IMG/VR virus record: IMGVR_UViG_3300020603_002318
Location: 1-21,454 of that record
DNA: 21,454 nt
Direction: 5' to 3' (one strand)
Source of the DNA: a virus
Shown: positions 3,052 to 21,432 of the stretch, in pieces
Layout: every line of letters starts with the position of its first letter
Position numbering within the stretch: the stretch's first letter is position 1
Translations under genes and position numbers: made by a program
Notes under the pieces: model-generated
Database searches by the model: none
Seen by the model: only the letters and a program-made list of their open reading frames with translations
What the model was told of the DNA's origin: nothing

Positions 3052-3375
3052 TTATACACTAAATGATTTTCCACAACCACAACTGGATTTTTGTTGTGGA
3101 TTTTTTAGTTTCAAAGCACTACCTGCCAATGATTGCTCATAATCCAACTCTGTTCCCGCAACATAAAAAACACTCATACTATCTACAACAAATTTGTATT
3201 CATTCAAGCTTATGATAAAATCATCTTTTTCTATTTGTTGTTCATCTACAAACTGATAATCGTAGACAAAGCCAGAGCATCCGCCACCTTTGACTTGTAA
3301 CTTGACTGCTGGTTTTTGATGCTCTTTGCAAATGGAGCGAATGTATTCTTGTGCGTTAGGAGTTAGAGAGAACAT
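3052..3375 (-). CDS. iscA: A-type iron-sulfur carrier, IscA/HesB family
   Basis: A 107-residue protein matching the family length. The three conserved cluster ligands are Cys33 in GGGCSGF, and Cys99 and Cys101 in SSCGCGKSF at the C terminus. A-type carriers take [2Fe-2S] or [4Fe-4S] clusters from the scaffold and pass them to target enzymes in the cytoplasm. The start at 3375 overlaps the end of iscU by 20 bases, so the two are coupled. Phage-borne IscA and HesB proteins are known in marine T4-like phages. Here the likely clients are the Rieske protein (11536-12402) and the radical SAM enzymes (7375-8853, 20167-21432). SufA or ErpA type cannot be separated from IscA by eye; the adjacent IscU favours the Isc name. 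Confidence 0.93.
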   Translation of the reverse strand: MFSLTPNAQEYIRSICKEHQKPAVKLQVKGGGCSGFVYDYQFVDEQQIEKDDFIISLNEYKFVVDSMSVFYVAGTELDYEQSLAGSALKLKNPQQKSSCGCGKSFSV

Positions 3376-3745
3376 TTTTACTTCTATAATTTTCTATTGC
3401 TGTCTTGACGGCATCTTCAGCCAAAACACTACAATGTATTTTTACTGGCGGAAGTGCAAGATGTTGTGCAATTTGAGTATTTTTTATAGTTGATGCTTGG
3501 TCAAGAGATTTACCTTTTAGCCATTCTGTTATGTAACTTGAGCTTGCTATGGCAGAACCGCAACCGAAAGTTTTAAAGACCGCCGTATCAATTATTCCGT
3601 TTTCGTCTACTTTGATTTGCAGTTTCATCACATCGCCACAAGCAGGTGCTCCAACAAGACCTGTACCTACAGATTTATCTTTTGGGTCAAGAGAGCCAAT
3701 GTTGCGTGGATTCTCAAAATGATCTATTACCTTGTCGCTATACAT
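3356..3745 (-). CDS. iscU: Iron-sulfur cluster scaffold IscU
   Basis: A 129-residue full-length scaffold. All ligands are present: Cys36 and Asp38 in PACGD, Cys62 in FGCGSA, His104 and Cys105 in KIHCSVLAED. The LPPVK motif (98-102), recognised by the HscA chaperone in bacteria, is intact. This suggests the phage protein plugs into the host IscS/HscAB machinery, since no desulfurase or chaperone is encoded in the window. It overlaps the upstream gene by 8 bases and iscA by 20 bases, in one operon probably driven from 4407-4434. It assembles [2Fe-2S] clusters on sulfur delivered by a cysteine desulfurase in the cytoplasm. Confidence 0.95.
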   Translation of the reverse strand: MYSDKVIDHFENPRNIGSLDPKDKSVGTGLVGAPACGDVMKLQIKVDENGIIDTAVFKTFGCGSAIASSSYITEWLKGKSLDQASTIKNTQIAQHLALPPVKIHCSVLAEDAVKTAIENYRSKNVLSNS

Positions 3746-4364
3746 TTTTAAACTCGGTCATGTAACTATCGTCCGTTAGCATTTTATTTGCATTCTCTAC
3801 AGAATAGATAGAAAGATCTATTTCGTATCCTGGGTTTTTAGTTATTGGGTCTTTAACCCAAGCGTTGTCGTGCCAAATAACTCTATTGTTAGGATATATG
3901 TAATAATTACCTTCATCCATTTGAAATAGATGACCGCATTTATGTTCTGGTGTCTCAGAAAAATTAGTATCTAGCATTGCTTTATTTTCAAAGGCCCAAT
4001 CTAAAGTAAACAAATATATACCCTCTCTTTTTTCTCCGCTTGGAGTAACAAGTTTAGCCCTAAGTCTATTTAATCTAGCTCGCACCTGAACATCTACATA
4101 TGAGCTAAAACAATCCCAATAAACATGTTCATGTAAAGGTCTAATAGGCGCGTCACGTTTCCAACAAAATGCCGTTATAGGTCGTCTAGTCCAATTTACT
4201 CCATTTTCTAAAAATGCTTCAAATAAAGGAACTCTTCGCTCTATAGATGCCACACTATGAACATCACAAAAAGAATATTCGCCATGACCTTGCTTATGAT
4301 TGAAAAGATATTCATTTCTAATGAAGCAAGTTATTGTTGGAATGTTGTGATTCAAAAAACTCAT
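3738..4364 (-). CDS. Conserved protein of 208 residues, unknown, first gene of the isc operon
   Basis: The product starts MSFLNHNIPTITCFIRNEYL and continues with a KQGHGEYSFCDVHSVAS stretch, then PITAFCWKRD and RPLHEHVYWDCF. Many His, Cys, Trp and Tyr residues suggest a compact, possibly metal-binding enzyme, but no catalytic motif that I can name is visible. I have the impression that proteins with this N-terminal pattern occur in phages and proteobacteria, with no known function. ATG 4364 has AGGA upstream at about 9 bases. It overlaps iscU by 8 bases, so a link with iron-sulfur metabolism is plausible. No membrane segment or signal peptide is seen. Confidence 0.75.
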   Translation of the reverse strand: MSFLNHNIPTITCFIRNEYLFNHKQGHGEYSFCDVHSVASIERRVPLFEAFLENGVNWTRRPITAFCWKRDAPIRPLHEHVYWDCFSSYVDVQVRARLNRLRAKLVTPSGEKREGIYLFTLDWAFENKAMLDTNFSETPEHKCGHLFQMDEGNYYIYPNNRVIWHDNAWVKDPITKNPGYEIDLSIYSVENANKMLTDDSYMTEFKNV

Positions 4365-4406: not shown

Positions 4407-4434
4407 ATCTTACTTATTTTTATAAAAATGTCAA
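4407..4434 (-). promoter_or_regulatory. Candidate sigma70-type promoter of the isc operon
   Basis: TTGACA (4429-4434), a 16-base spacer and TAAGAT (4407-4412) on the minus strand. The -35 overlaps the stop codon of the Nudix gene. The predicted start near 4400 gives a leader of about 36 bases to ATG 4364. The -10 is a moderate match. Confidence 0.5.
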
Positions 4435-4871
4435 GGAAGATTATGATATGAGTCCTTGAGCATCTTCGAAAAGCCTGGATGCAAGTTCTTGGGCATTTCA
4501 TTTTTGTCAAACCAATCAAATCTATCATTTTCATAGTTTAGATTTGGCATGAACTCGGATTGTTTTGGAATCTTGCATAGAAATGTATGATACTGAAAAT
4601 TGGGTTTACTATAGTCCGTATGGATGTGCTTGAGCTGATCTCTGGTGATCTCACATCCGATCTCTTCACCAACTTCACGAACGACTGTATCCATGAGATC
4701 CTTGTCGTTCGTGTCAGCCGATCCGCCTACTGGTGAATATGTATGTGGACAATCGCAATCTTTGCTTCTCTTGGCAATACCATACTTGCCTGTGTCCTGT
4801 GCGTGAAACAATGCGCCAGCTGCTTGTCTTTCATTATCCTGTTCGCGTAAAAAAGACCTAAGTGTTTTCAT
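4431..4871 (-). CDS. Nudix hydrolase
   Basis: ATG 4871 is chosen because AAGAGGAAAAT stands directly before it; the longer frame to 4937 runs through a late promoter. The 146-residue product has a Nudix box at about 49-73: Gly49-Gly50, then REVGEE at 65-70 followed by Ile-Gly. The REVGEE core carries the metal-binding glutamates. The spacing between the box glycine and the Arg-Glu core is about one residue longer than the textbook motif, and the usual first Glu is replaced by Lys or Asp. Nudix enzymes cleave nucleoside diphosphates linked to another group; phage members act on dNTPs, ADP-ribose, NAD or RNA caps. The substrate is not predictable here. The start of the frame (MKTLRSFLRE) resembles other phage Nudix proteins. 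Confidence 0.85.
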   Translation of the reverse strand: MKTLRSFLREQDNERQAAGALFHAQDTGKYGIAKRSKDCDCPHTYSPVGGSADTNDKDLMDTVVREVGEEIGCEITRDQLKHIHTDYSKPNFQYHTFLCKIPKQSEFMPNLNYENDRFDWFDKNEMPKNLHPGFSKMLKDSYHNLP

Positions 4872-4905
4872 ATTTTCCTCTTGACAAACACTTGACAGAA
4901 CACTA

Positions 4906-4913
4906 TATTTATA
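4906..4913 (-). promoter_or_regulatory. T4-type late promoter for the Nudix gene
   Basis: TATAAATA, the T4 late promoter consensus, on the minus strand, 34 bases before ATG 4871. It is the centre of a 20-base inverted repeat (4899-4918, arms AACACTATA/TATAGTGTT). The leader contains two TCAAG copies and then a Shine-Dalgarno site, a layout shared with the promoter at 7249-7256. Confidence 0.7.
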
Positions 4914-4933
4914 GTGTTGCCGTTGAATTAATT

Positions 4934-6061
4934 TCACCAGATTTTTTTGTAAGTAAAATCACCTAGATATTTATCTTTAAGATAATTGTTGATTTTTTTG
5001 ATTGCAATCTCAACAGTTTCTCCTGATGCTGTCAATGAGCCAAAGACATTTCCTTTGCTCCACCGTAATTGACTTCCAAACACGACATCATTTGACCATT
5101 CAAGAAACGGATAATTACAATTTTCTTTTCTTGTTTCACTATAATCATCATGAATTAGTTGCAGACATGCACCAGCATTTCCTGTTCGTTTTATTTTTGG
5201 TAAAGATTGCATAGTTGACGATCTATAAAAAAGATCAAAAAGATCTATTGAAAGTGTTGGATATAATGATTGTGTTTCTGGTTCCCCAAACCTTGTGTTT
5301 ATTTCCAACACATAATATGTTGAATCAACTTTCATTATGTTTAGATACATTATACCGTTATATGAAATTTTAATTGAAGACAAGAAATCCAATATTTTTT
5401 GAATATATGAATCTATTTCTAATATGTTTTCTTGAATTGATTCAGATGTTGACGCTATTCCACATGTATTGTAACCTTTATATCTTTTATAATCTTTGGA
5501 TATGCCAAGGAAAGTAAAAGTATGTCCGTTACACATGACTTGATATGAAAATTCTTCTCCAATCAAGAATTTTTCAATCAATATGTCTTGTTCTAGAAAA
5601 TTTGGTTTTGATAAAGAACCTTCCCATTTTTCATCAATTATTTCAGTCTGTTTACCGAGTAAATGATCAGCATCATATTTTGCAACAAATGGACGATCTA
5701 GTTTTTCTAGATTTTTTCCCTTTTCAATTTTGTATTCTGATGTTGGTATTTTCAATTTTTCTAGAATTTTTTTCGTTGTTATCTTTGATTGTTCTAAATA
5801 AGCAACGTTCGTATTAGGTAAGAAAAAAGGTATTGTGCAGGTTTTGGCCAATCTTTGTAAAAAATCACTTTTCTGATATGCATTTCCAATTGCAACAACA
5901 AGATCAATCTTTTTTGATTTTAACCAATCTTGGGAAAGCATACAAGAAAGTGTAGAAAATTCCATATCTTGTATGTGTATCAATTTACAATTATGATATT
6001 GATCGTAATTTTCAATTAGTTGTGTGGAAAGAGAACTATGACAAAGAAGAGCTACGTTCAT
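4934..6061 (-). CDS. PurD-like ATP-grasp ligase
   Basis: A 375-residue protein from ATG 6061; a TTG 39 bases upstream is the alternative, and neither has a clear Shine-Dalgarno site. The domain order follows phosphoribosylamine-glycine ligase: N-terminal Rossmann-like part (1-90), ATP-grasp core (about 90-290), and a C-terminal domain with SLTASGETVEIA. ATP-grasp motifs include EKFLIGEE (163-170), DYKR (190-193) and VLEINTRFGEPETQ (251-264), the last nearly identical to PurD. Two family signatures are lost. The glycine-rich GGREHA-type motif is replaced by LLCHSSLS, and the NTGGMG substrate loop by NTCGIAS. So it may ligate a different acid and amine. PurD acts at step two of purine synthesis; no other pur gene is in the window. 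It follows the PP-loop gene by 54 bases. Confidence 0.82.
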   Translation of the reverse strand: MNVALLCHSSLSTQLIENYDQYHNCKLIHIQDMEFSTLSCMLSQDWLKSKKIDLVVAIGNAYQKSDFLQRLAKTCTIPFFLPNTNVAYLEQSKITTKKILEKLKIPTSEYKIEKGKNLEKLDRPFVAKYDADHLLGKQTEIIDEKWEGSLSKPNFLEQDILIEKFLIGEEFSYQVMCNGHTFTFLGISKDYKRYKGYNTCGIASTSESIQENILEIDSYIQKILDFLSSIKISYNGIMYLNIMKVDSTYYVLEINTRFGEPETQSLYPTLSIDLFDLFYRSSTMQSLPKIKRTGNAGACLQLIHDDYSETRKENCNYPFLEWSNDVVFGSQLRWSKGNVFGSLTASGETVEIAIKKINNYLKDKYLGDFTYKKIW

Positions 6062-6115
6062 CTGATTTGATCTGAATAAATTTGTTTTTAATTTTGCCAA
6101 GAAAAAATAAACAAA

Positions 6116-7213
6116 CTAATTGATAAAATACTTACGACTCCAAATATCATTTCTATTATAAGATCCATGTTTCATCAACAATTCTGAAAAATTTTTATGA
6201 GCCCAAACAACTTGCTTTACATAATCTTCATATATTTTTGAATTTTTATTTTTCATTATGAAGCTATCTCGTAATGATAAAATATTATTACTTTTCTGAG
6301 ATTTAAATCTTAGAGAGTTTTTTACATTATTGTAAATTATCTTCTTAATTATTTCATGATAATACTTAGAACTAAAAAATATGTCATTAGTTATTATTTT
6401 TTTTGACAACACATTTTCATTGTAAAAATTAGATAACAAATGTAGTTGTTTAGATAATATCTTAGGCATGTCAGGTGTCCAATAAAAAAATTCTCGATTT
6501 ATATCATTATATTCTTTACATAATGGATAGTTTCCATAATCAGAGACTGCAAGAGCATTAAAAGATAAAAAATGTTTAGAATCATTAATAGAAAAATTGG
6601 GTTTATAATCATTAATAGAAAAATTGGGTTTATCGATACCAAATATTATTGATTTTTTCTTTTTGTTATTATCAAAGTTTAACAATGATGATGTTTCCCA
6701 CCATCTATAATGTATACTAAAATGTGTGTCAACAACTATGTATTTTTTATCAATGTCATTGTACGACACAAATTTCTCTGGAGTATCAAATAATTTTGAA
6801 TAATCGTGGTAAGTTATTTTAGTGTTTTTCAAATTCATCATCTGTAAAGTAGGAATACAGTTATGGTAAATTTCGCCGTTATGATTTTCGTCTGATCCAT
6901 AATATGAATCTTGAGAGAACGCACCAACCATGATGATTTCGTCAATATGAATATTGTTATAGTAAAAAGCTTCAAGCATATTTGTTGAATCAATACCGCC
7001 AGAATATGCTAATATCAAATATTCGTATTTGTCTCGTAGCTGTTGGGCTCTCAATTTGTATAATTCAGACAATGTCTCCTTGGGTTCTATTTTCCAATCA
7101 AACTCAAGAAATTCTTTGTCGTAAAAATATAAAGAAATTTCGTTCTTTGAACGAAGTGCATCAAACTTGGAATAATATTTTTGTCCTAATTGATCATAAT
7201 AAAAATATTCCAT
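6116..7213 (-). CDS. PP-loop ATP pyrophosphatase family protein A
   Basis: ATG 7213 (365 residues) is chosen because AAGGA lies 7 bases upstream and a late promoter at 7249-7256 sits inside the longer frame. SGGIDS at 71-76 is the PP-loop that binds ATP in asparagine synthase, NAD synthase, QueC and related enzymes, which adenylate a substrate and release pyrophosphate. The N-terminal 110 residues are clearly homologous to the protein at 13200-14432: both have a YYxxLG start, KEPxESLxxLY-like stretch, LRxKYxYLIL, the PP-loop and NNIxIDE. No glutaminase domain is fused, so ammonia or an amine would come from elsewhere. A nine-residue KPNFSINDY tandem duplication lies near the middle. The gene is very AT-rich. 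Substrate unknown. Confidence 0.82.
   Translation of the reverse strand: MEYFYYDQLGQKYYSKFDALRSKNEISLYFYDKEFLEFDWKIEPKETLSELYKLRAQQLRDKYEYLILAYSGGIDSTNMLEAFYYNNIHIDEIIMVGAFSQDSYYGSDENHNGEIYHNCIPTLQMMNLKNTKITYHDYSKLFDTPEKFVSYNDIDKKYIVVDTHFSIHYRWWETSSLLNFDNNKKKKSIIFGIDKPNFSINDYKPNFSINDSKHFLSFNALAVSDYGNYPLCKEYNDINREFFYWTPDMPKILSKQLHLLSNFYNENVLSKKIITNDIFFSSKYYHEIIKKIIYNNVKNSLRFKSQKSNNILSLRDSFIMKNKNSKIYEDYVKQVVWAHKNFSELLMKHGSYNRNDIWSRKYFIN
6581..6634. repeat. 27-bp in-frame tandem duplication
   Basis: 6581-6607 is repeated at 6608-6634 with only the last base different. It encodes KPNFSIND twice within the PP-loop protein and keeps the reading frame, a sign of recent slippage. Confidence 0.9.
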
Positions 7214-7248
7214 ATCTTTTTCCTTGATAAGTACTTGATAGCACTGTA

Positions 7249-7256
7249 TATTTATA
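7249..7256 (-). promoter_or_regulatory. T4-type late promoter for the PP-loop A and PurD-like pair
   Basis: TATAAATA on the minus strand, 35 bases before ATG 7213. The leader resembles that of the Nudix promoter, with two TCAAG copies followed by an A-rich Shine-Dalgarno region. The rest of the gap to the radical SAM stop (7257-7374) is AT-rich, with short palindromes and no clear terminator. Confidence 0.7.
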
Positions 7257-7374
7257 TTGTTGTCGTTGAATGAATTATTATTCAAATAAAAACATTGATA
7301 AATAATTTTCTTGTATAGTTTAATAAACTTTAACTTGTATTAGGAATTACTTCTTGTTGAAAAATAAGTAAAAA

Positions 7375-8853
7375 TTACAACGACAATAATTTTTCAAAAT
7401 ATGCGTTGTCTAAATTCTCTATAATTTTTTCAACTTTTAATGTACGAAAAAATCTTTTTGTATTTGTTATGATTTCATCATGCGAAAATCCAAGATTGAT
7501 AAGACCATTATAATAAAATGCGCCATGTGTATCTTTTTTTTCCGTAACTGAATATAGTTTTCGAGAAAGACTGTAGCACCAATCGGAATTTAGATCTTCA
7601 TTCTTGTATTTCCAAGCAAAATGACCATCATTTTTTAACTCAAACTCCATATCATAATTTTTCCAAGTTAGATCAAATTCACTTCGATATAATTTAAATT
7701 GAGTTATTTCCGGAGGCATTACTCCAAAGTGAGAGAAAATATTATCGTTAAGTGGATTATCATTTGATACTACCCATTTACTGAAATTGATCAAACTTTG
7801 TTTTGTATCGGATGGTAATCCAAGTATCCATCCGGATCCCAAAACAACATTTTTGAATTCATTTAGTTTGAGTTTTTGTAAAAACTCAATTTGTTTATAT
7901 GGATCTAGTCCTTTTCCTATAAGTTTGGCTGCATTTCTATTAATTGTTTCTATACCAAATATTATTGCTGTAGCTCCCGATTCTTTCAATATTTCAGCAG
8001 TATGCGGAAATCTATAAATCAAATCAAGTCTCATATATACGCTAAATGATATTTTAAAGGGTAACTTTGAATACACTTTTTCATATAAATCTTGAATTTT
8101 TTCACATGAATCATTGTATGTATCATCAGTAAAAGTATAATTTGTAATTCCAAAATTTTCATAGTTATAAATAAATTCTTCTTTTAGAATATCATAATTT
8201 TTTATCCAATCACCTTTTGTTTTTCCATTTAATGGAAAAGAACAAAATTTGCATTTGAATATGCATCCTCTACTTATTTCCGCTGCTAGCGTTCTACAAT
8301 TTAAAACATCATTTTTTAGATAATTTATTTTACTACAATGAAAATTTTTATATTCCCTATTGTAAATTATTTTATTTGATGGTAAAATATTTTTCGCAAG
8401 ATTTTTAGTAAAATCTACAATTTGTTCATCAGTATATCCTCTAAATTGATAAAAATTTAAATAGTCTAGTGAAAATAATTTTGCACCACCTAAAATAAAT
8501 TGTATTTTATAATTTAGCGTTTTTGCATATTCAATGAATTTTTTTAGTTCAATATCAAAATTTGGATTATTTTTTTTATAAAAATCAACTTGTGTTTGTG
8601 AATCAAAATATTTGTAATCAAAAATATGATTTAAAAAATTTACGCTAAATCCAATCCACAAAGTATCTTTATCAACAAATTTATCTAGAATAGTTTCGTG
8701 TAGTTTTGTAAATGTTTTCAACTTGCAAATGTCTACAACTTGCACAGTAAATCCATTTTCTCTAAGCTGAGTTGCTATTCTATACGGACCTGCAGAAATT
8801 AGTCTAAACGGGCATTCAGTATTACCTGAAAAAATAAGACAATTTACACCCAT
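7375..8853 (-). CDS. Radical SAM protein with B12-binding-like N-terminal domain
   Basis: A 492-residue protein. Cys197, Cys201 and Cys204 in GCIFKCKFC form the CxxxCxxC motif that holds the [4Fe-4S] cluster for S-adenosylmethionine cleavage. The N-terminal 160 residues, with GPYRIATQLRENGFTVQVVD, look like the Rossmann-type cobalamin-binding domain of B12 radical SAM proteins, though the DxHxxG cobalt ligand motif is not evident. Radical SAM core strands follow (FTDDTYND, MRLDLI, AIIFGIET, GWILGLPSD). The C-terminal 120 residues are unassigned. ATG 8853 overlaps the end of tctA by 10 bases, so the gene closes the transporter operon. Known relatives perform methylations, methylthiolations or ring rearrangements; the substrate is unknown. 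It would need an iron-sulfur cluster that IscU and IscA could supply. Confidence 0.88.
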   Translation of the reverse strand: MGVNCLIFSGNTECPFRLISAGPYRIATQLRENGFTVQVVDICKLKTFTKLHETILDKFVDKDTLWIGFSVNFLNHIFDYKYFDSQTQVDFYKKNNPNFDIELKKFIEYAKTLNYKIQFILGGAKLFSLDYLNFYQFRGYTDEQIVDFTKNLAKNILPSNKIIYNREYKNFHCSKINYLKNDVLNCRTLAAEISRGCIFKCKFCSFPLNGKTKGDWIKNYDILKEEFIYNYENFGITNYTFTDDTYNDSCEKIQDLYEKVYSKLPFKISFSVYMRLDLIYRFPHTAEILKESGATAIIFGIETINRNAAKLIGKGLDPYKQIEFLQKLKLNEFKNVVLGSGWILGLPSDTKQSLINFSKWVVSNDNPLNDNIFSHFGVMPPEITQFKLYRSEFDLTWKNYDMEFELKNDGHFAWKYKNEDLNSDWCYSLSRKLYSVTEKKDTHGAFYYNGLINLGFSHDEIITNTKRFFRTLKVEKIIENLDNAYFEKLLSL

Positions 8854-10310
8854 TTTTTGTATATCTTGATTGACGAAAAAAGAAATAATAACACAATAAA
8901 CAATATAATATTTATTTCACTATTCCAAAATATGTCAAGATTACCTTTAGACATCATCATTGCTCGTCTAAATTGTTCTTCAATCATTGGAGTCAATAAA
9001 AATCCCATAATTATTGGAACACAATCAAGATTATTGCTTATCATAAACCAACCAAATAAACCAAAAAATAAAATCAAAAGTATTTCAAAATAAGATTGAT
9101 TTATATTGAACACTCCAAACAAACAAGCAAATAGTATAATGAACTTGAAATATTTTTTAGGTATAGATAATACTTTTATCCATATTGAAACAAGAGGAAT
9201 GTTCAATAATAATAAAAATATATTTCCTAAAATCATTGATGAAATCAATATCAAAAATAGATCATTACTTTGGGATGCAAATTTAGGACCAGGAACCAAA
9301 CCATATACTGTTAGTGCACCTAATATCATTGCGGTTGACGCATTTATTGGAATACCTAAAGACAAAGTAGGTATTAGACTTGATTGAGAACTAGCATTAT
9401 TTGCTGATTCAGGACCGGCAACACCCTCAATAGCACCACTACCAAATTCTTTTTTATATTTGCTAAATTTTTTTTCAAAAAAATATGAAACAAAAGATGA
9501 TAGAAGAGTTCCTCCAGGAAAAAGACCTAAAAAAATACCAAAAATAGTTCCTCTAAAAGTTGGAAAAATACTTCTTTTTATTTCTTCTTTAGTGGGATAC
9601 ATTGTATGTATTTTTTCAATAACTTGATGACTATTTACTTGTGAAGTCGATCTAAAAACTTCAGACAATCCAAAAATACCAATCGAAACTATTGCAATTC
9701 CAACACCATCATATAAACTTAGAATATTGAATGTGAATCTTTGCGTGCCAATTATTGGATCTAATCCGATCAATCCAATTAGAGAACCGATACATAATAA
9801 TCCTATTTTCATAAAATGATTATTATCATTAGACAAAAATATTGATGCTATCAGCCCTACAACACCCAAGTAGACGTATTCGGCTGGACCTAATTTTAGA
9901 GAAAACTCCGAGAAATACACGACAAAAAAATAAATTATAAAAGTTGTGAATATTCCCGCAAAAAAACTACTAATTGCTGCTATTGTTAGCGCAGATCCTG
10001 CTTTTCCTTTTTTGGCTAACAAATTACCTTCAATAATTGTTGGCACGGAAGTTATCTCTCCGGCAACTTTCATTAGAATAGCAGTTGTTGATCCACCATA
10101 CTGTGATCCATAATAAATTCCTATCATCATTATTATGGATTGTGGTGCTGGTATGTAAAAAGTTGTTGGTAAAAGTAGTGCTAAAGCTGTACTGGGACCA
10201 ATACCGGGAATAACACCAATCAAAGTACCTATCAAAACGCCAATGGCGCAATATACTACATTTGATAGTGTATAAAATTGTCCAAAATGATCAAGTATTT
10301 CTAAAACCAT
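8844..10310 (-). CDS. tctA: Tripartite tricarboxylate transporter, large permease subunit TctA
   Basis: A 488-residue integral membrane protein with about 10-12 hydrophobic segments and no frameshift. Family signatures are strong: GVIPGIGPSTALALLLP (32-48), GIYYGSQYGGSTTAIL (64-79), and the second-half repeat GVAGPESANNASSQ (296-309) followed by LSLGIPINAS. ATG 10310 is chosen over an upstream TTG because it matches the usual N terminus and overlaps the tctB stop. TctA is the ion-driven carrier of TTT systems, taking citrate, tartrate or aromatic acids from the binding protein TctC across the inner membrane. It is full length and keeps all signature motifs, so it is probably functional. A complete TTT permease in a phage is unusual. 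Confidence 0.95.
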   Translation of the reverse strand: MVLEILDHFGQFYTLSNVVYCAIGVLIGTLIGVIPGIGPSTALALLLPTTFYIPAPQSIIMMIGIYYGSQYGGSTTAILMKVAGEITSVPTIIEGNLLAKKGKAGSALTIAAISSFFAGIFTTFIIYFFVVYFSEFSLKLGPAEYVYLGVVGLIASIFLSNDNNHFMKIGLLCIGSLIGLIGLDPIIGTQRFTFNILSLYDGVGIAIVSIGIFGLSEVFRSTSQVNSHQVIEKIHTMYPTKEEIKRSIFPTFRGTIFGIFLGLFPGGTLLSSFVSYFFEKKFSKYKKEFGSGAIEGVAGPESANNASSQSSLIPTLSLGIPINASTAMILGALTVYGLVPGPKFASQSNDLFLILISSMILGNIFLLLLNIPLVSIWIKVLSIPKKYFKFIILFACLFGVFNINQSYFEILLILFFGLFGWFMISNNLDCVPIIMGFLLTPMIEEQFRRAMMMSKGNLDIFWNSEINIILFIVLLFLFSSIKIYKKWV

Positions 10311-10605
10311 AAAAATAAGATATTCCCATGAATAAAACTCCAACGTATATGTTGAACAAATAAGTAAATATACAAAAACAAGAAATACTCATAATAATCC
10401 AAAATAAAACATTTTTGTCGATATAAAAAGGAGGATTATCCTTTTTTAGTAAAATTATTCCACAAATGCAAAGTATTGAAGAGATAATTGTTGGAAAAAA
10501 ACCCGGTTTTATTTTTGATATAGATCCAAAATCATGTTGAAGAGATAAAAAAAGAAATGTGCTTCCTATGAAGAGAAAGCACATTCCAACTAAAGATAAC
10601 CTCAT
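10291..10605 (-). CDS. tctB: Tripartite tricarboxylate transporter, small subunit TctB, C-terminally short
   Basis: A 104-residue membrane protein. Hydrophobic segments lie at about 4-22, 37-53 and 67-98, the last long enough for one or two spans. The TctB hallmark KPGFFPTIISSIL (33-45) links the first two. Typical TctB proteins have about 140-160 residues and four spans, so the C-terminal part is reduced or missing. The ATGA overlap with tctC and a 20-base overlap with tctA show translational coupling. The stop lies inside the tctA start, so shortening may have come with operon packing. TctB is needed for transport in known systems, but its exact role is unclear. Confidence 0.85.
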   Translation of the reverse strand: MRLSLVGMCFLFIGSTFLFLSLQHDFGSISKIKPGFFPTIISSILCICGIILLKKDNPPFYIDKNVLFWIIMSISCFCIFTYLFNIYVGVLFMGISYFYGFRNT

Positions 10606-11480
10606 TTTTTATTGCTAAATTGCTGAATTTGCGAGTTGAAAAAAATAATTGGATTTTCTTCAATCTTTTCGTATCCGTATTTCTTGTATTCTTCATCTGT
10701 CATCAATGCATCAATCGATTTTTTAATCAAACTTACTTGCTGATCAATCAAACCAACATGAAATAGGCCAAACCAAGTTGTTAAATCATAATCAAAACCT
10801 TTCTCTTTGAGAGATACGATTTCAGGTAAAGCATAAAATCTTTTTTTGTCAAGAACAAGAATTGCTTTAGCTTTACCAGAAGAAACAAATGCATTATATG
10901 CACCATATGTATTTCCATATGCGTTTATTCTACCAGCCAATAAATCTGGAATAGCAAAACTAGAACTTCTATATGTGACTAAATTACAATTTTTGAAAAC
11001 TTTCAAAATGTTACATAGATAATCGTATATATTGTAAGATCCTGTTCCTGGCGAATTTGCGCCAAAAACAATATCTTTAGTTTGTGATAATAAAATCATT
11101 TCATCAATACTATTGACAGATAAACTTGTAAACAAAATTTGAGGACCTTCACCTATAAAGTAGATAGGTTTTGCAACTTTTGTTAAATTTTTTGGATAAC
11201 CATCAGAGGCATATTTTTTGTTCTCGATAATTGGATTTCCAGTTAGCAACAAAGCTTTTTTTTGATCAATAAAATAGCTTAGAGCAATATTTGAAGCGCC
11301 TCCTGTTTTGTTTATGACATCAACTTTCAAAACTGATTCATCAATTGCATTGGAAATTCTTCTAGCAAGAAGATCAAAACCACCGCCAGCACCATAAGGA
11401 ACTATCAACTCAATTTTTTCTTTTGAATATGCAAAAGACGAACATAAAATTACAAACAAAAATGATAAAATTCTAATCAT
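10602..11480 (-). CDS. tctC: TctC-type periplasmic solute-binding protein
   Basis: A 292-residue protein with a signal peptide (1-19: MIR, a hydrophobic core ILSFLFVILC, and a likely cut after AYS). No good lipobox is seen, so it should be soluble in the periplasm. The family signature VPYGAGGGFDLLARRI at 27-42 and a second GANSPGTGS motif form the carboxylate-binding loops of TctC/Bug proteins. Ligands of relatives include citrate, tartrate, nicotinate and terephthalate. AAGGAG lies 10 bases before ATG 11480. It is first of tctCBA, following the Rieske gene by 55 bases without a terminator, so it is probably co-transcribed with it. Confidence 0.94.
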   Translation of the reverse strand: MIRILSFLFVILCSSFAYSKEKIELIVPYGAGGGFDLLARRISNAIDESVLKVDVINKTGGASNIALSYFIDQKKALLLTGNPIIENKKYASDGYPKNLTKVAKPIYFIGEGPQILFTSLSVNSIDEMILLSQTKDIVFGANSPGTGSYNIYDYLCNILKVFKNCNLVTYRSSSFAIPDLLAGRINAYGNTYGAYNAFVSSGKAKAILVLDKKRFYALPEIVSLKEKGFDYDLTTWFGLFHVGLIDQQVSLIKKSIDALMTDEEYKKYGYEKIEENPIIFFNSQIQQFSNKK

Positions 11481-11535
11481 ATCTAACTCACTCCTTATTT
11501 TTCATAATCCATTTTATTTCATTTAAAAGTGCCCT

Positions 11536-12402
11536 TTAAGGGAATCGTGTCTCATGACTATTTACTAAACGGTTTCTTTTAATCCACTCACCAAAAATTT
11601 GAACTTGATATTCCAGCGGACTAATAGCATTAGAGTAAGGTACATATGGGATAATTTGTTTTTCGCTAGCTTTTACATCTTCTATAAAAACATCCTCTAC
11701 TTTGTTAAAAATTTCTCTTTCTTCTTGTGATATCCTGGGGTTAAAATAAATTTGAGTCATCCAACTATACCCCCACTCAGTATTTTTATTTTTAGGAAAA
11801 ATTGAATTTATTGATAGACAGCCAGGTGTCCATTCAACAAATATGTAGGGAAACACATAGACCCAAAAACCAGTGTGTTGTTTCTGAAATATCCAACCAT
11901 CTCCATTATCTAAAAAAATATTATTTGGATCGTATTGAGTATACAGCCAAGAATGAATGCCATCTTTATGAACATGAAGAAGATCTGCTTCAATCTCAGT
12001 CAACCACAACCAATTGCCTTCACTCTTGCCAGTATAGCTATGACTATATTCAAGATTGGTTTCATTTGAAATACAGTCGACCCATTCGTGTTTTGGCTCG
12101 ACAAAGTTTTTGAAAACAATACCAGATTTTCCTAAGTCGTAGCTTTGACAGTTAAGTTTATATTGATGCTGATTAATTGGCCTGCCATTATTGTCGTATT
12201 GAAACCCATGCAATTTGCAGGTAATATTGTCTGTGGGTCCTAACTGATCTCCAATAGGATAAAACCTGTGGGGGCATGTCCTATTAAATAGATTTACCTT
12301 TTCATTTGATTGCGACATTATGTATTCGTATCCAATAAATGGTCTGTTTTTACAAGCAGACACATGTCCTATAACCTTAGGAGGATTTTTAAACATTATC
12401 AT
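11536..12402 (-). CDS. Rieske [2Fe-2S] non-haem iron oxygenase, short
   Basis: A 288-residue protein. The Rieske motif is complete: Cys43 and His45 (CPHR), then 16 residues, then Cys62 and His65 (CKLHG). A catalytic-domain motif follows, ADLLHVHKDGIH (139-150). Asp140, His143, His145 and His150 are candidates for mononuclear iron binding, and an acidic stretch at about 240-255 may give the third ligand. Oxygenase alpha subunits usually have 330-450 residues, so this is a compact form. Such enzymes hydroxylate, demethylate or desaturate a substrate with O2 and an external reductase. No reductase or ferredoxin is seen, so host partners would be needed. The start overlaps the PP-loop B gene by 14 bases. 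Confidence 0.88.
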   Translation of the reverse strand: MIMFKNPPKVIGHVSACKNRPFIGYEYIMSQSNEKVNLFNRTCPHRFYPIGDQLGPTDNITCKLHGFQYDNNGRPINQHQYKLNCQSYDLGKSGIVFKNFVEPKHEWVDCISNETNLEYSHSYTGKSEGNWLWLTEIEADLLHVHKDGIHSWLYTQYDPNNIFLDNGDGWIFQKQHTGFWVYVFPYIFVEWTPGCLSINSIFPKNKNTEWGYSWMTQIYFNPRISQEEREIFNKVEDVFIEDVKASEKQIIPYVPYSNAISPLEYQVQIFGEWIKRNRLVNSHETRFP

Positions 12403-13216
12403 AACTCATTTTTTTCCACAAATTATTTAGCTTTCCTAGATGAAATTTGGTGTCTACACTATTTTTGTTATGCTTTAATAAAAAAAGAGAATTTAATTTT
12501 TGAATTTTTTCATTAAATATTGGTCTTATTTTATCTCTCGTCTCGCAATCAAATACTTGACTTTTTAGTTTTTTCCAAGATATAAAATCATTTTTTATTT
12601 CTCGAAGCATTGATGATACTAACTCCAACCTATAAAGAAAAAACGGAATTATATCTATATTTGATAAAGCATCATTATAAAAATCCCATTCTGAAAGATA
12701 GTATTCATAATTTTCTATTATTTCATCACTATCGCCAATTATGTGTTGTGCTTCAATAAAAGCATCTCCACGACTTTCTGCATATTTTGCAGCAGCTATT
12801 GTACCAACAGAATAAAAACCAATTCCATTTAATTTATTTACTATACTATTTTGAATTATATCAGCAATTTCAGAATTTGTCAATCGCAAGATTATTGAAT
12901 GTAAATTATATTTTTTGCAAAACTCAAAAGCATAAGCACTTTCTTTCAAATTATTTTCATATAATGATATTATTGGAATAAATTTTGCATTGTTTCTGTA
13001 AAAAATCTTGCACAAAAATTCAGAATCTATTCCACCACTTAGTCCTATAAAAATATTTGAATATTTTTGTGTTAGAATATTACAAGTTATATCGCATTCT
13101 TCTTGAAAAGACAAATGCGTAAATTTATAAGGAAGAAAGTCAACTGAAAAATTGCTTTTTTTATTATCAATTCTTTCTTTTATATTTGTAATAAGCCAAT
13201 TATTGTGTGTTACCAT
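12389..13216 (-). CDS. PP-loop ATP pyrophosphatase family protein B
   Basis: A 275-residue protein with SGGIDS at 60-65 after IFIGL, the ATP-binding PP-loop of asparagine synthase and N-acetyl-sugar amidotransferase-like enzymes. Further along, a GTIAAAKYAESRGDAFIEAQHIIGDSDE stretch (residues about 138-165) resembles the second conserved region of the fold, containing a GDSDE acidic motif. It differs in length and order from the paralogues A and C: it lacks their N-terminal YYxxLG region and carries about 58 residues before the loop. It overlaps the upstream PP-loop C gene by 17 bases and the Rieske gene by 14 bases. Two unlike PP-loop proteins back to back suggest a two-step or heteromeric reaction, which is inference. 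Confidence 0.82.
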   Translation of the reverse strand: MVTHNNWLITNIKERIDNKKSNFSVDFLPYKFTHLSFQEECDITCNILTQKYSNIFIGLSGGIDSEFLCKIFYRNNAKFIPIISLYENNLKESAYAFEFCKKYNLHSIILRLTNSEIADIIQNSIVNKLNGIGFYSVGTIAAAKYAESRGDAFIEAQHIIGDSDEIIENYEYYLSEWDFYNDALSNIDIIPFFLYRLELVSSMLREIKNDFISWKKLKSQVFDCETRDKIRPIFNEKIQKLNSLFLLKHNKNSVDTKFHLGKLNNLWKKMSYDNV

Positions 13217-14432
13217 TGTGATATCTTACATAATATTTGTTTGTTGAAAAAACCTCATCAAAAAAATTAATAACGGTCTCTATAGATTTTTTTGGAAAAA
13301 AACTTGTTTGAACAATATCAATTACTTTTTTGTAATTGGACAATTTTTCATTTTCATATAAAGACATTGTATATTCAGAAAAATAATCAATAGATAAATA
13401 TTTTTTTAACTGATTTTCTGATAAGTTTTTATTTTTTACTAGCTCAATTGTGGCGTCTGCATATTTTGGTCCTGTAAACAATCTTTTATTTTTGAATTTG
13501 TATATCACACTTGAGTACAAGTCTTCTATTTTTCGAGTTGAATATACTTTATTATTATAGGATGATATCTCTTCTTTTTTTAAGTTATTCAATATTAAAT
13601 GTGCCTGCTTTACATGTATCTTTGCAAAATTTGGATGTATGTAAAACAACTCCATATTGTTTGGCAAATTTTTTTGCGAAATAACATGAGATAGATCAAT
13701 AAAATCAACAACATTTATATCTGTCATATGAATATAATATCCAACACTATCATAATTTAGTTTTACTTTTTCCTTTCCATAAATATGTCCAACTTTTTTC
13801 ATTTCAGTAATTTTTTGCCATTCTTTGTTGAATAATGTCAAATCTTTGTTTCTAAAAGTAAGTTTTGGTTGAATACCTAAACTACATGATTTAAGATAAT
13901 TTTCAATTTTGTTTTTATCAATATTTTGAAAATATTTAAAGTTAATTCCATATACATCATTTATTATTGATAATTTTGTTTTTGATGAAAACGTATCTAT
14001 ATAAAATTTTGCCTGTGGTATTGCAGATTTTATTGGTTCGTGATAGTGATCTAAAAGAATATGATCTTGTAAAAACAATTCTAATTTATCGTTATTATAA
14101 GTATGAACTGCTACTTCATCAATGAAAATATTGTTCAACATAAAAGTCTCTAATATTTGATGACTATCATTCCCACCAGAATAATGTAAAATAAGATAAT
14201 CGTATTTATTTCGCAGTTGAATAGCTCTCTGCAAATACAATTGTTGTAAAGATTCTTCTGGTTCCTTAGTAATATCAATTTTTGACAAAGCGTTTTCCCA
14301 ATTAGGAAAATGCCAAGTTATGTGCTTGTCTTGAAACTTTTCTTTTGCATATAGGGCAAATAGTTTTGTTGAGAGTTTTTGATCACCAAGTTTGTAATAA
14401 TAATAGTAAGGATGATTTTCAAGATTATTCAT
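13200..14432 (-). CDS. PP-loop ATP pyrophosphatase family protein C
   Basis: A 410-residue protein with SGGNDS at 85-90, following KYDYLILHY. The N-terminal 120 residues are homologous to protein A (6116-7213), including the YYxxLG start, the KEPEESLQQLY stretch and NNIFIDE after the loop. The C-terminal two thirds diverge strongly and are rich in Lys, Asn and Tyr. The PP-loop has Asn in place of the Ile of the other two, a tolerated position. It begins 10 bases after the GIY-YIG gene and is the first gene of the AT-rich operon to 7375. No promoter is clear at 14433-14441, so read-through from the core block is likely. Confidence 0.8.
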   Translation of the reverse strand: MNNLENHPYYYYYKLGDQKLSTKLFALYAKEKFQDKHITWHFPNWENALSKIDITKEPEESLQQLYLQRAIQLRNKYDYLILHYSGGNDSHQILETFMLNNIFIDEVAVHTYNNDKLELFLQDHILLDHYHEPIKSAIPQAKFYIDTFSSKTKLSIINDVYGINFKYFQNIDKNKIENYLKSCSLGIQPKLTFRNKDLTLFNKEWQKITEMKKVGHIYGKEKVKLNYDSVGYYIHMTDINVVDFIDLSHVISQKNLPNNMELFYIHPNFAKIHVKQAHLILNNLKKEEISSYNNKVYSTRKIEDLYSSVIYKFKNKRLFTGPKYADATIELVKNKNLSENQLKKYLSIDYFSEYTMSLYENEKLSNYKKVIDIVQTSFFPKKSIETVINFFDEVFSTNKYYVRYHNGNTQ

Positions 14433-14441
14433 CTATATTTC

Positions 14442-14864
14442 TCATAATTTTGCCGTTGAATACAGCTGTGTATTTCTTCTGATCCTGCACTGTATCCATT
14501 TGTTGTATGTATTTTCAAGCAACACGGATAACTCAAATTGATACTTGGCTTCATAATATGTGCATTCGCTTTTTGACTTGCACAGTCTAAGTATCTCTCG
14601 GCGAAACATGTTCTTGCCTAGCTTCTGCACATCTTCGTTTAGTTCTTCTGATGAAGAGTAATAGTTCTTCCAATCAGATTCCACGCGAATCTTTTTCTTC
14701 TTCTTCTTGATTGTTTTATAACCAGCGCGGGTGAATAGCTTTTTGCCGATATAAAAGCGACCATCATTGAGATTCGTTATCTTGTAAACAAATCCAATGA
14801 TGTCGCTTATTTGTTCTAAAGTAAAAACTTTATCTTGATATATCCAGGGGTTTTCATAATCCAT
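14442..14864 (-). CDS. GIY-YIG domain phage protein
   Basis: A 140-residue protein with GFVYKITN (24-31) and GRFYIGKK (35-42), the two strands of the GIY-YIG nuclease core. A basic run (RAGYKTIKKKKKKIR) and ESDWKNYYSSSEEL follow, then a conserved Arg-Glu pair (RREIL) and YYEAKYQFE, whose Glu is the likely metal ligand. This layout, with the SDWxxYYxSSEEL signature, occurs in short GIY-YIG proteins of marine T4-like phages. It may be a structure-specific or homing nuclease. It is flanked by a short AT-rich gap at 14865-14907 and the PP-loop C gene. It has higher GC than the genes that follow it, so it belongs to the core block. The ATG has no strong Shine-Dalgarno site. Confidence 0.82.
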   Translation of the reverse strand: MDYENPWIYQDKVFTLEQISDIIGFVYKITNLNDGRFYIGKKLFTRAGYKTIKKKKKKIRVESDWKNYYSSSEELNEDVQKLGKNMFRREILRLCKSKSECTYYEAKYQFELSVLLENTYNKWIQCRIRRNTQLYSTAKL

Positions 14865-19565: not shown

Positions 19566-20192
19566 TTATATTTTTTTTCCAATAATCATAAATCTTTTAT
19601 ATTCTTTGTATTGATCGACGTATGTCTCACCTTTCCATAAAATATTGGTCATTAATGATTGTTTTTCAAACTCTTTTAGATCATTGCAACATCTTATATG
19701 TTCTTTTATTCTAAAAAGATTGTTAGATTGAAGTATTATTAGCGAATCTTTTGGTATTTTATCGTACCAAAGCTGGTATGTTTCATCGTTAATGTGTTCA
19801 AAAGATGTATTAATAACAATTGGATTGGAATCATATTTGTTCCAATCTTTCATATCTTGATTTACAAATATATAATTTTTATTCTTTTTGTTTAAATAAT
19901 TTGAAATTTCTTCACAATTTTTATTCGTATCAATATTGTAAATCTTGTCTATCTTGATATCATCTGCATTAAAAAGAAGAAAAGGTAAAAAACCATACCA
20001 TCCGCCAAAGACATAGATTTTGTGTTTTTGATTTAAATCAATGTAGTTTAGAAGTTTAAGGATCAACCAAATTTTTGATATGTATTGTGTTTTTGCAAAT
20101 GCATCAAAAACATTACTATGCGTTTGATGAAACTTTTTTGCTGTTTCCAATATAAAAATAAAATCATTATTTTTTAAAAAATCGTTCTTCAT
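19566..20192 (-). CDS. Class I SAM methyltransferase-like protein
   Basis: A 208-residue protein. VFGGWYGFLP (61-70) stands where methyltransferase motif I (the SAM-binding glycine loop) is expected. IYNIDTN (84-90) matches the acidic residue after strand two, and IVINTSFEHI (about 125-134) matches motif IV. Strand-helix alternation fits a Rossmann fold. Related phage proteins are annotated as class I methyltransferases, with the substrate unknown. It overlaps the upstream radical SAM/SPASM gene by 26 bases, so the two are translated together. It is very AT-rich, like the genes at 5-14 kb. The downstream gap to 19466 shows no strong terminator. Confidence 0.7.
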   Translation of the reverse strand: MKNDFLKNNDFIFILETAKKFHQTHSNVFDAFAKTQYISKIWLILKLLNYIDLNQKHKIYVFGGWYGFLPFLLFNADDIKIDKIYNIDTNKNCEEISNYLNKKNKNYIFVNQDMKDWNKYDSNPIVINTSFEHINDETYQLWYDKIPKDSLIILQSNNLFRIKEHIRCCNDLKEFEKQSLMTNILWKGETYVDQYKEYKRFMIIGKKI

Positions 20193-21432
20193 CAGTTAGA
20201 TCGGTTCTTAAAGTTTTAGATTGACCAGAAAAAGTTGCGTCATACACATTACGATTTAATCCGCATGTTTTAGCACAAACTGCTAATTTTCCTTCAGCGC
20301 AACTTTTTTGTTTCCAGCGATTTGGTATTGTTTCTTGAAAAAATTTACCATTAATTATTGTTTCAAGATCATTTATTTTTATGTCAAGTTTGTTTATTCC
20401 AACTTCATTTATTGCGTCCCAAACTTGAGATCCTTTAAATGCTCTATACGGACTATACATGTCACTACCTATCCAACAACAAGGTATAACATATCCTTCA
20501 GAAGAAATAAAAATACTCCTTTCCGACAAGACTCTACATTTTATTTCAACTTTATCCAAATTTTTTTCAGTACTATTCTTCTTATCAAAGTCAAGATTAT
20601 AACTTTCATAACCAAAAAATTTATTAGTTATTTTTTGTTTTATCCAATATTCTTCATATCGTTCATTTTTTAATCCTGAAATTTTTTTATTTACTTCTCT
20701 TATTTTTGCATTATTGTCATTTAAGATTTTAAAAATCATTTCATTTTGATATTTTGAGTTTTCTGGCATTTCTATAAGATTAGTATTATTACCTTTTATA
20801 TCAACAGCTTGCACTCCCCTACAAGCATCAATTGAAAATTGATTATAAAATCTTCCTGTTTTTTTTATTAAGAATTCTACAAATTTCATTTCTTTTGCAA
20901 GTTTAGCTGCTTTTTCAACTTGATGTTCATTGTGTTTGAAAACAATATAATGCCATTTTGCATTTCCACCTGCATCTATAAATGACTTTACGTTTTCAAT
21001 TATTTTTTTCCAATTTGTACCTTGACGATATATATGATTTGTATCTTCCAAACCATCTATGCCAAAAACAATATGATGGTTTTTTCCTAAAATTTTAGGA
21101 AGAGAACTCCACCACTCCTGAGTTCGCATACTTCCGTTTGTATGCATTGATAAAGACATCGTAGGATTTGTGTCTCTTAAATGTTGAAATATTTCTCTAG
21201 TGTCTCTAGCAACACCAGGATCACCAAAATTACCACACATATATAGGCTTCTAAGTTGCTTAATGAATTCTGGTTTTAATATTTTTTTGATATCATCAAG
21301 ATATAACTGTGAACCTTTTAAATATGGATTGTCTGCTCCTCCCATGATATTTCTAGGGCATTGAGGACAACGAGCATTACACAAATCAGTTATTTCAAGA
21401 TGAACAGAATTTACTTCGGAATATTTGTACAT
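20167..21432 (-). CDS. Radical SAM protein with SPASM-like C terminus
   Basis: A 421-residue protein. Cys18, Cys22 and Cys25 (LCNARCPQC) form the radical SAM cluster motif. GNFGDPG (about 68-74), MHTNGS and FGIDGLEDTNHIYRQG are typical of the MoaA/PqqE/SPASM group. The C-terminal half carries many cysteines: KCRVL, PCCW, SCAEGKLAVC and AKTCG. They are suited to one or two auxiliary [4Fe-4S] clusters as in SPASM or twitch domains. AGAGGT precedes ATG 21432. SPASM enzymes usually modify peptides or proteins; no precursor peptide is visible in this window, though the upstream region is cut off. It is coupled with the methyltransferase-like gene. Confidence 0.88.
   Translation of the reverse strand: MYKYSEVNSVHLEITDLCNARCPQCPRNIMGGADNPYLKGSQLYLDDIKKILKPEFIKQLRSLYMCGNFGDPGVARDTREIFQHLRDTNPTMSLSMHTNGSMRTQEWWSSLPKILGKNHHIVFGIDGLEDTNHIYRQGTNWKKIIENVKSFIDAGGNAKWHYIVFKHNEHQVEKAAKLAKEMKFVEFLIKKTGRFYNQFSIDACRGVQAVDIKGNNTNLIEMPENSKYQNEMIFKILNDNNAKIREVNKKISGLKNERYEEYWIKQKITNKFFGYESYNLDFDKKNSTEKNLDKVEIKCRVLSERSIFISSEGYVIPCCWIGSDMYSPYRAFKGSQVWDAINEVGINKLDIKINDLETIINGKFFQETIPNRWKQKSCAEGKLAVCAKTCGLNRNVYDATFSGQSKTLRTDLTDEERFFKK

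Follow-up and report, generated by a model that had tools for sequence, protein, structure and literature searches.

A candidate capture-and-activate cassette of Tct transporter, PP-loop and oxygenase genes on a T4-like phage backbone

The gene run and its borders

The window is the whole 21,454-nucleotide stretch of IMG/VR record IMGVR_UViG_3300020603_002318. It contains a run of seven genes on the minus strand, from 14432 to 7375, all with open reading frames. In gene order, these encode PP1 (13200–14432), a viral PP-loop ATP-pyrophosphatase of family PPa without a Pfam match; PP2 (12389–13216), from a second, shorter PP-loop family with weak Pfam matches; a Rieske non-haem iron oxygenase (11536–12402; PF00355, E = 1.5e-7); a TctC-type solute-binding protein (10602–11480; PF03401, E = 1.4e-8); a short TctB-type small membrane subunit (10291–10605; PF07331, E = 5.9e-9); a TctA-type permease subunit (8844–10343; PF01970, E = 4.8e-125); and a radical SAM enzyme of the B12-binding-like group (7375–8853; PF04055, E = 8.9e-13). 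The Pfam matches and the SGGxDS motifs of the PP-loop proteins agree with the identities and single direction given in the preliminary description. The spacings from PP1 to the radical SAM gene are −17, −14, +55, −4, −53 and −10 bases, and taking the ATG at 10310 as the TctA start reduces the TctB/TctA overlap from 53 to 20 bases; given this alternative start, the earlier figures of overlaps of 4–20 bases and a largest gap of 55 are right. The seven genes stand as a unit, but the list was incomplete, as the run continues on the same strand past 7375 through PP3 (6116–7285; gap 89), a PPa paralogue 33% identical to PP1, and a PurD/PylC-like ATP-grasp ligase (4934–6100; gap 15; GARS_A, E = 1.1e-19). 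The unit thus extends to 4934, where the ATP-grasp gene is overlapped by a minus-strand NUDIX hydrolase gene (4431–4937; PF00293).

The NUDIX gene is a backbone gene and marks the downstream border, while the upstream border is formed by a segE-type GIY-YIG putative homing endonuclease (14442–14864, minus strand; PF19835, E = 3e-36). Further downstream on the same strand are an IscU/NifU-N Fe-S scaffold (3356–3745; PF01592, E = 4.5e-51) and an IscA-type Fe-S carrier (3052–3375; PF01521, E = 2e-16), which could supply the clusters of the Rieske and radical SAM enzymes. The virus is a phage, and the run is a candidate operon on its genome. The backbone is T4-like, the primase matching Synechococcus T4-like phages best (43–44%), and the genes flanking the cassette (the T4-like primase, NrdJ, ThyX and segE) recur in relatives; by gene content, the cassette is a set of putative auxiliary metabolic genes on a phage backbone. 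Its G+C content is low (0.25–0.34) compared with segE (0.36), NUDIX (0.40) and NrdJ (0.43). A scan for sigma-70 promoters gave no excess over shuffles. A second contig is 99.9% identical across the module, and the near-identical contig L075 lacks 906 bases comprising most of the ATP-grasp gene. Codon differences from relatives with 50–70% protein identity fall mostly at position 3, the pattern expected under purifying selection.

Transporter, oxygenase and PP-loop proteins

TctA, TctB and TctC all score over their Pfam cut-offs, as in a tripartite tricarboxylate transporter. TctC matches solved TctC/Bug proteins (phmmer, 8.6e-19), and its relatives among the solved Bug/TTT receptors include a terephthalate-binding protein. 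The N-terminus of TctC is hydrophobic and signal-like, and TctA and TctB contain eight and three TM-like segments, respectively. Signal-like segments were found in 55 of 58 TctC-type proteins, and in none of the viral DctP relatives sampled (0/10 and 0/84), indicating that at least the viral DctP relatives are not classical periplasmic receptors. As in bacterial TctCBA systems, TctC, TctB and TctA lie in one operon and TctC carries a signal-like segment; here, however, PP-loop, Rieske and radical SAM genes surround them, and most viral relatives show TctC without TctA (in 22 viral records, the cut-off was passed by TctC in 17 and by TctA in 4).

The Rieske protein has intact motifs (CPH..CKLH, DLLHVHKDGIH and ED), and the cluster motif together with D-x2-H-x(4-8)-H is present in all 12 viral homologues. 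Eight of the 12 have H-x6-H at the iron site in place of the usual H-x4-H, and the final ED is invariant in 4. The radical SAM CxxxCxxC cluster motif is intact in the window protein and in 10 of 10 sequences compared; the DxHxxG cobalamin motif is absent from the window protein and from all 10. Certain members of the class B radical SAM enzymes do not have the cobalamin-motif histidine, so that B12 use by the viral enzyme is a possibility. NCBIfam places the protein, below threshold, with the HpnJ/PhpK-like enzymes, and PF02310 is weak in the window protein (0.017) and below cut-off in a relative (1.3e-5). The ATP-grasp gene has a 58% identical counterpart in the L006 cassette.

The SGGxDS ATP-binding loop places PP1, PP2 and PP3 in the PP-loop superfamily, and it is conserved throughout the three viral families (199/203 PPa, 52/54 PP2 and 49/50 PP36). 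Related phages thus keep the SGGxDS, Rieske and radical SAM motifs, and the inactivated catalytic sites that would have spoken against a working pathway were not found. PP1 belongs to a clade of four with the L006, L099 and L007 members, which all adjoin TctA, and PP3 to a clade of 24. AlphaFold2 modelled PP3 with a pLDDT of 85 and PP2 with a pLDDT of 90 (from A3), and a Foldseek search with the PP2 model gave carbapenam synthetase as the best match (4.4e-6), followed by TtuA, LarE and NadE. PPa matched PDB structures only weakly (best E about 2e-3), and no solved structure aligns with its C-terminal half; its chemistry could therefore be thiolation, or amidation of another substrate. The PPa profile found nothing credible among PDB sequences, and Pfam offers no convincing match to the larger PP-loop family.

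In the clavulanate and thienamycin pathways, a PP-loop synthetase is accompanied by iron oxygenases, radical SAM and ATP-grasp enzymes and a carbamoyltransferase, and clavulanate has OppA-type binding proteins. The viral enzyme set is comparable to these pathways, with PP2 closest in fold to carbapenam synthetase. The viral proteins differ in their low identity (10–16%) and in the distinct C-terminal half of PPa, as well as in the N-terminal Ntn (glutaminase-type) domain, the hallmark of AsnB and beta-lactam synthetase, for which PP1, PP2 and PP3 gave no Pfam match. The PP-loop begins at residue 60 in PP2, 85 in PP1 and 95 in PP3, leaving no room for such a domain. We, therefore, do not assign these proteins to the AsnB/beta-lactam synthetase family.

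Recurrence and exchange of the cassette in viral contigs

Single-protein scans with PP1, the Rieske protein, TctA and the radical SAM enzyme recovered the same virus only, and alignments were required to find relatives. Viral contigs were scanned with separate PP-loop, Rieske, TctA and DctP seeds and counted by group, the groups not being fully independent by descent. All seven groups from the Rieske seed contained PPa as well as PP2 or PP36; PPa was also present in 7 of 11 groups found with TctA and in 22 of 35 found with DctP. From the PPa seed, a TctC- or DctP-type binding protein was found in 35 of 46 groups, and the fetched stretch of the other 11 contained none. The same associations were thus recovered from four separate seeds and in many viral contigs rather than as scattered genes, and this recurrence, with the intact motifs, bears out the preliminary description in that the genes belong together.

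Same-strand adjacent pairs of PPa and a binding protein numbered 32, as against 10.6 ± 3.0 in within-locus shuffles (maximum 23 across 2000 shuffles). Most of these pairs overlap, by 1–59 bases, and they are spread over several separate PPa clades. Relatives also carry a Trp halogenase, P450, carbamoyltransferase, ketoacyl synthase and amidoligase, tailoring enzymes of types typical of small-molecule pathways. FAH and Rieske genes occur together in none of 27 PP2/PP36 groups (Fisher 2e-4, a value weakened by shared descent).

Three phages with related backbones (NrdJ 92–93% identical) contain different cassettes between segE and NUDIX, and the segE (77–78%) and NUDIX (65–67%) copies stand at the same borders in L007, L099 and L102. 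All three cassettes keep PP-loop, TctA and TctC-like proteins, and the smallest, that of L099, consists of TctA, PPa and a TctC-like protein only. This suggests that the cassette is exchangeable as a block next to the homing-endonuclease gene, and that phages swap whole uptake-plus-chemistry cassettes there.

A proposed function and its alternatives

We tentatively favour, at a confidence just short of probable, an exchangeable phage cassette for the uptake, adenylation and tailoring of a carboxylic acid. During infection, TctC and the phage TctB and TctA would import one particular small organic acid; where the binding protein is found alone, as in most relatives, host permeases would probably be used. 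PP1, PP3 and PP2 would then adenylate the carboxyl group, as AsnB-, NadE- and beta-lactam-synthetase-type enzymes do, so that an amine or another nucleophile could be coupled to the acid. A second amide bond may come from the ATP-grasp ligase, and the Rieske and radical SAM enzymes may oxidise or alkylate the molecule. With a constant PP-loop core, exchange of the binding protein and tailoring enzymes would alter the molecule. We infer from the gene content that the substrate is a carboxylic acid, that uptake, with transport directed inward, precedes activation, and that the PP-loop products are amides whose benefit falls to the phage. Besides the recurrence, adjacency, cassette swapping, intact motifs, folds and tailoring enzymes described above, this capture-and-activate reading is favoured by another viral record, in which the TctC gene shares 16 bases with that of an AMP-forming acyl ligase (FlxY/PaaK-like), a non-homologous carboxylate-adenylating enzyme. 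Points on the other side are the weak structural matches of PPa, the missing signal segment of the viral DctP relatives, the 11 PPa-seeded groups in which the fetched stretch contained no binding protein, the loss of most of the ATP-grasp gene in a near-identical contig, and the incomplete independence of the groups.

A broader proposal, doubtful at present, is that the loci belong to a large class of viral biosynthetic gene clusters, in which many uncultivated tailed phages would make a small molecule with virus-specific PP-loop ligases and interchangeable oxygenases, and matching periplasmic TctC or signal-less DctP proteins would capture the precursor or product.

It is unlikely that the cassette acts on a surface or virion glycan, with PP-loop enzymes amidating sugar acids, oxygenases and radical SAM enzymes decorating host or phage glycan, and binding proteins scavenging a sugar acid. 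PPa does lie near genes for UDP-glucose-dehydrogenase-like, glycosyltransferase-like, SPASM radical SAM or carbamoyltransferase proteins in L053, L011 and L045/L051, and the module abuts putative tail-fibre genes in T4-like relatives. However, no glycosyltransferase was recognised in the window cassette, the PP-loop proteins have no glutaminase domain and most TctC-linked cassettes are without sugar genes. The surface-sugar product suggested earlier fits a minority of loci only.

Nutrient assimilation, in which an aromatic or other organic acid is imported and oxidised to supply the infected cell with carbon or energy, is improbable, even with a terephthalate-binding protein among the TctC relatives and with phage-encoded PstS as an earlier case of uptake helped by a binding protein alone (PMC10976474). 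Intradiol PF00775, the ring-cleavage family searched, and Fer2 ferredoxin (PF00111) were each found in none of 21 viral records, and a Rieske oxygenase would therefore need host partners in place of a dedicated ferredoxin or reductase. The window contains no CoA ligase or AMP-binding PF00501, the operon has no ring-hydroxylating beta subunit, and the Rieske protein scores 22.1 bits against the ring-hydroxylating catalytic domain, under the Pfam cut-off of 24.9. The several PP-loop paralogues per locus would also be left unexplained. Aromatic catabolism, the model put forward in the preliminary description, is thus poorly supported.

Chance co-location of PP-loop, Tct and oxygenase genes in a hypervariable region that gathers unrelated auxiliary genes is quite improbable and already disfavoured. 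The cassettes do sit in variable regions with shuffling contents, where segE may drive exchange, but the same families were reached from four different seeds, adjacency exceeds the within-locus shuffles, reading frames overlap, and a minimal three-gene version exists in L099. We give equally little credence to a sponge or sensor, in which binding proteins would sequester a host or competitor molecule (a defence signal or antibiotic) that the enzymes would adenylate and oxidise and so inactivate. The signal-less viral DctP proteins, which may be cytoplasmic, and the high divergence of the binding proteins (10–32% identity between the window TctC and others) are consistent with it, whereas the signal-like segments of TctC-type proteins and the full permease in the window argue against it, as do PADLOC matches that are superfamily-level only (radical SAM, 4e-7; QueC, 4e-7), with no defence-specific family. 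Modification of phage DNA or tRNA by the PP-loop enzymes in the manner of QueC, TilS or TtuA, which would correspond to the modified nucleotide suggested earlier, is very improbable: TtuA, LarE and QueC are among the fold or profile neighbours and the window has 13 tRNA genes, but no QueD/QueE/QueF or base-hydroxymethylating partner was recognised in the cassettes, nor any other positive evidence, and the binding proteins and permease would be left unexplained.

Relation to described systems

For cyanophage PstS, it was suggested that the phage solute-binding subunit works with the host PstABC permease (PMC10976474). Both systems have a phage-supplied solute-binding subunit. The present cassette differs in its probably organic ligand, in the coupling of the binding protein to PP-loop enzymes and in its phage-encoded permease subunits. 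A TctA domain has likewise been reported on SUP05 viral contigs, its role in infection being stated as unknown (PMC4164917). That was a single domain match, in contrast to the multi-gene cassette here, which occurs in several phage groups and has TctA beside a virus-specific PP-loop gene. In the open-access literature searched, we found no paper joining these families in phages, in agreement with the earlier view of an undescribed pathway. The cassette joins isolated viral hits (tctA, lone TctC or DctP, Rieske oxygenases) into one testable system, and a virus-specific PP-loop family without a Pfam model is defined in dozens of phage groups.

Neither 50,697 phage records, searched by tblastn, nor 84,980 prokaryote species, covered by a limited pattern scan, yielded a relative of the larger PP-loop family. 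Cultured phages and plasmids contained no relatives of PP1, PP3, the Rieske protein, the radical SAM enzyme or PPa/PP2 members from other loci, and PHROGs gave no match for PP1, PP2, Rieske, TctC, TctA or radical SAM. For TctA, seven distant matches (28–37%) were found in cultured phages and plasmids. Limited pattern scans of bacterial genomes returned nothing of the PP3 type and, for PP2, a single hit, a PP36-like gene next to fatty-acid desaturases in a Bdellovibrionaceae MAG.

The extended operon of the window

The window is the complete IMG/VR record IMGVR_UViG_3300020603_002318 (21,454 bases). The seven genes that the preliminary description reported on the minus strand from 14432 to 7375 (PP1, PP2, Rieske, TctC, TctB, TctA and radical SAM) are found at those positions with open reading frames, and TctA, TctB, TctC, Rieske and radical SAM have Pfam support. 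The intergenic spacings are -17, -14, +55, -4, -53 and -10, and the -53 at TctA becomes -20 if a downstream ATG is the TctA start. The run extends beyond these genes to PP3 (6116-7285), a PP1 paralogue with 33% identity, and then to an ATP-grasp ligase (4934-6100). The G+C content of the cassette is 0.25-0.34 versus 0.36-0.43 in segE, NUDIX and NrdJ. A second contig, L075, is 99.9% identical to the window over the module and lacks window 5004-5909 inside the ATP-grasp gene; these 906 bases are a multiple of three with ~10 matching bases at the ends, and their absence is either a true deletion variant or an assembly effect. Genes for iron-sulphur assembly lie downstream of the cassette and could supply clusters for its Rieske and radical SAM proteins.

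Several other features were observed in the window. On the coding strand, a hairpin of 14 pairs and then a run of seven T (10554-10587) lie near the tctB start and might form an attenuator or be a chance occurrence. Positions 1-1699 hold an array of 13 tRNA genes and a small ORF (586-909) with relatives in the viral loci L013 and L036. The protein at 3738-4364 carries a doubtful ferredoxin label from PHROG 3704 and has no Pfam match. At 19566-21432, where the otherwise near-identical contig L003 diverges (58% in the radical SAM part), there is a radical SAM/SPASM gene with a neighbour, a pair that recurs in L045, L051 and L059.

Recurrence of the PP-loop and binding-protein genes

Alignment of PP1 and PP3, members of the PP-loop family PPa, recovered 71 viral loci. 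Across sixty PPa members, the SGGxDS loop has invariant residues and is followed by a conserved region, and no PP-loop Pfam family gives an E-value below 0.05 with any of them. The confident AlphaFold2 model of PPa (PP3; pLDDT 85, pTM 0.87) has GMP synthetase, NadE, LarE, AsnB and beta-lactam synthetase as its best solved neighbours, all weak (E ~2e-3), while matches to uncharacterised viral proteins reach 7e-30; in the model, the PP-loop domain of PPa is accompanied by a distinct C-terminal half. PP2 belongs to a family separate from PPa, and its model (pLDDT 90) has carbapenam synthetase, TtuA, LarE and NadE as nearest neighbours. Five PP-loop queries found no relatives in 50,697 phage records, and a non-exhaustive pattern scan with short conserved peptides found no PP3-type relatives in 84,980 species. 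The core PP-loop enzymes form a viral family.

Each related locus is a metagenomic contig that IMG/VR classes as viral; ORFs were called in every locus, clustered and built into profiles, and near relatives were collapsed into 56 groups. A TctC- or DctP-type binding protein is present in 35 of the 46 PPa-seeded groups, with none in the fetched stretch of 11, and at least two PP-loop genes occur in 31/46 and at least three in 21/46. PPa and binding-protein genes are direct same-strand neighbours 32 times, versus 10.6 ± 3.0 (maximum 23) when labels were shuffled within each locus 2000 times, a null that ignores shared descent. The majority of these adjacent pairs overlap, and the pairing recurs across the PPa tree in several distinct clades: in one clade the binding-protein gene adjoins PPa in 17 of 17 rows, and in that of PP1 the other three members all adjoin TctA.

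Reciprocal scans, independent of the PPa seed, were run with Rieske, TctA and DctP. PPa was found in all seven groups (12 loci) of the Rieske scan and in 7/11 groups (22 loci) of the TctA scan; among the best 80 of 508 matching DctP stretches, which form 35 groups, PPa occurs in 22 and TctC in 16. The preliminary description proposed a single pathway, a reading at odds with relatives that are always scattered or catalytically inactivated. Instead, the PPa, Rieske, TctA and DctP seeds all recover the same associations, and the PP-loop, Rieske and radical SAM proteins nearly always retain their catalytic motifs. The cassette genes belong together, and we are highly confident that this is a genuine, recurring system. 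Separately, the 316 kb viral record L111 has TctA next to the gene for a PBP-like (PstS-type) binding protein (5645-8459), a few kb from PPa-TctC-DctP.

Cassette exchange and novelty

The window shares a backbone with the related loci L007/L102 and L099 (NrdJ 92-93%, primase 80%, ThyX 75%) as well as the border genes segE (14442-14864; 77-78%) and NUDIX (4431-4937; 65-67%), and the content between the borders differs. The window carries PP1-PP2-Rieske-TctCBA-rSAM-PP3-ATP-grasp; L007 carries a family-5 binding protein, PPa, an unassigned cluster 20 protein and PPa, followed by TctA, a TctC-like protein, a carbamoyltransferase-family protein and a radical SAM gene; in L099, TctA, PPa and a TctC-like protein make up the whole cassette. 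PP-loop and Tct genes are constant across the swapped cassettes while the tailoring enzymes vary. Homing-driven exchange is plausible because segE, a putative homing endonuclease, lies at the cassette border. In other T4-like relatives, the module has putative tail-fibre genes on one side and neck/terminase genes on the other, and it includes a fatty-acid-hydroxylase-family protein (FAH, PF04116); FAH and Rieske co-occur in none of the 27 PP2/PP36 groups.

The cassette members belong to known superfamilies and broadly form a phage auxiliary metabolic cassette. We know of no named system with its architecture, and the core PP-loop enzyme family is unclassified. We found no paper in the open-access literature searched on PP-loop, TctC/DctP and Rieske genes together in phages; TctA on viral contigs has one earlier mention, as a single domain hit of unknown role (PMC4164917).

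In the phage loci L055, L063, L083 and L084, PP-loop genes of a further family, PP36, occur with genes for fatty-acid desaturases (L055 has eight of them), a ketoacyl synthase (L055) or a P450 (L063). These loci resemble clusters for the biosynthesis of lipids or polyenes. In a Bdellovibrionaceae MAG contig (L108, 3724-7556), which also holds ordinary bacterial-looking genes, two genes for fatty-acid desaturases lie close to a PP36-like PP-loop gene.

Proposed capture and activation, and transport

TctC- and DctP-family binding proteins bind organic acids, and AsnB/NadE-type PP-loop enzymes activate carboxylates to acyl-adenylates. The tight coupling of the genes suggests that the captured molecule would be the same one that the PP-loop enzymes activate, a mechanism that we put forward tentatively as a serious possibility. 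An independent clue comes from another viral record, L109, in which TctC and its neighbour have overlapping genes; this neighbour is an AMP-forming acyl ligase (FlxY/PaaK-like), which is non-homologous to the PP-loop enzymes and has the same kind of chemistry. The radical SAM protein of the window lacks the DxHxxG cobalamin motif, and B12 dependence is therefore unproven.

Of 22 records, which may be incomplete, 17 have a TctC match over the cut-off and 4 have TctA, and the majority of relatives have TctC without TctA. This arrangement recalls phage PstS, a lone binding protein thought to act with host PstABC (PMC10976474). An N-terminal signal-like segment is found in 55 of 58 TctC-type proteins and in none of the viral DctP proteins in two samples (0/10 and 0/84). 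If real, its absence would place viral DctP proteins in the cytoplasm or virion, a location unexpected for the family, and would speak for binding or sensing as their function in those phages. The signal-less homologues of this TRAP receptor (L010 6347-7321; L073, L084, L088, L097; L112-L191) start at the mature domain, and their genes often adjoin that of a DUF2061 membrane protein and sometimes lie between neck and terminase genes.
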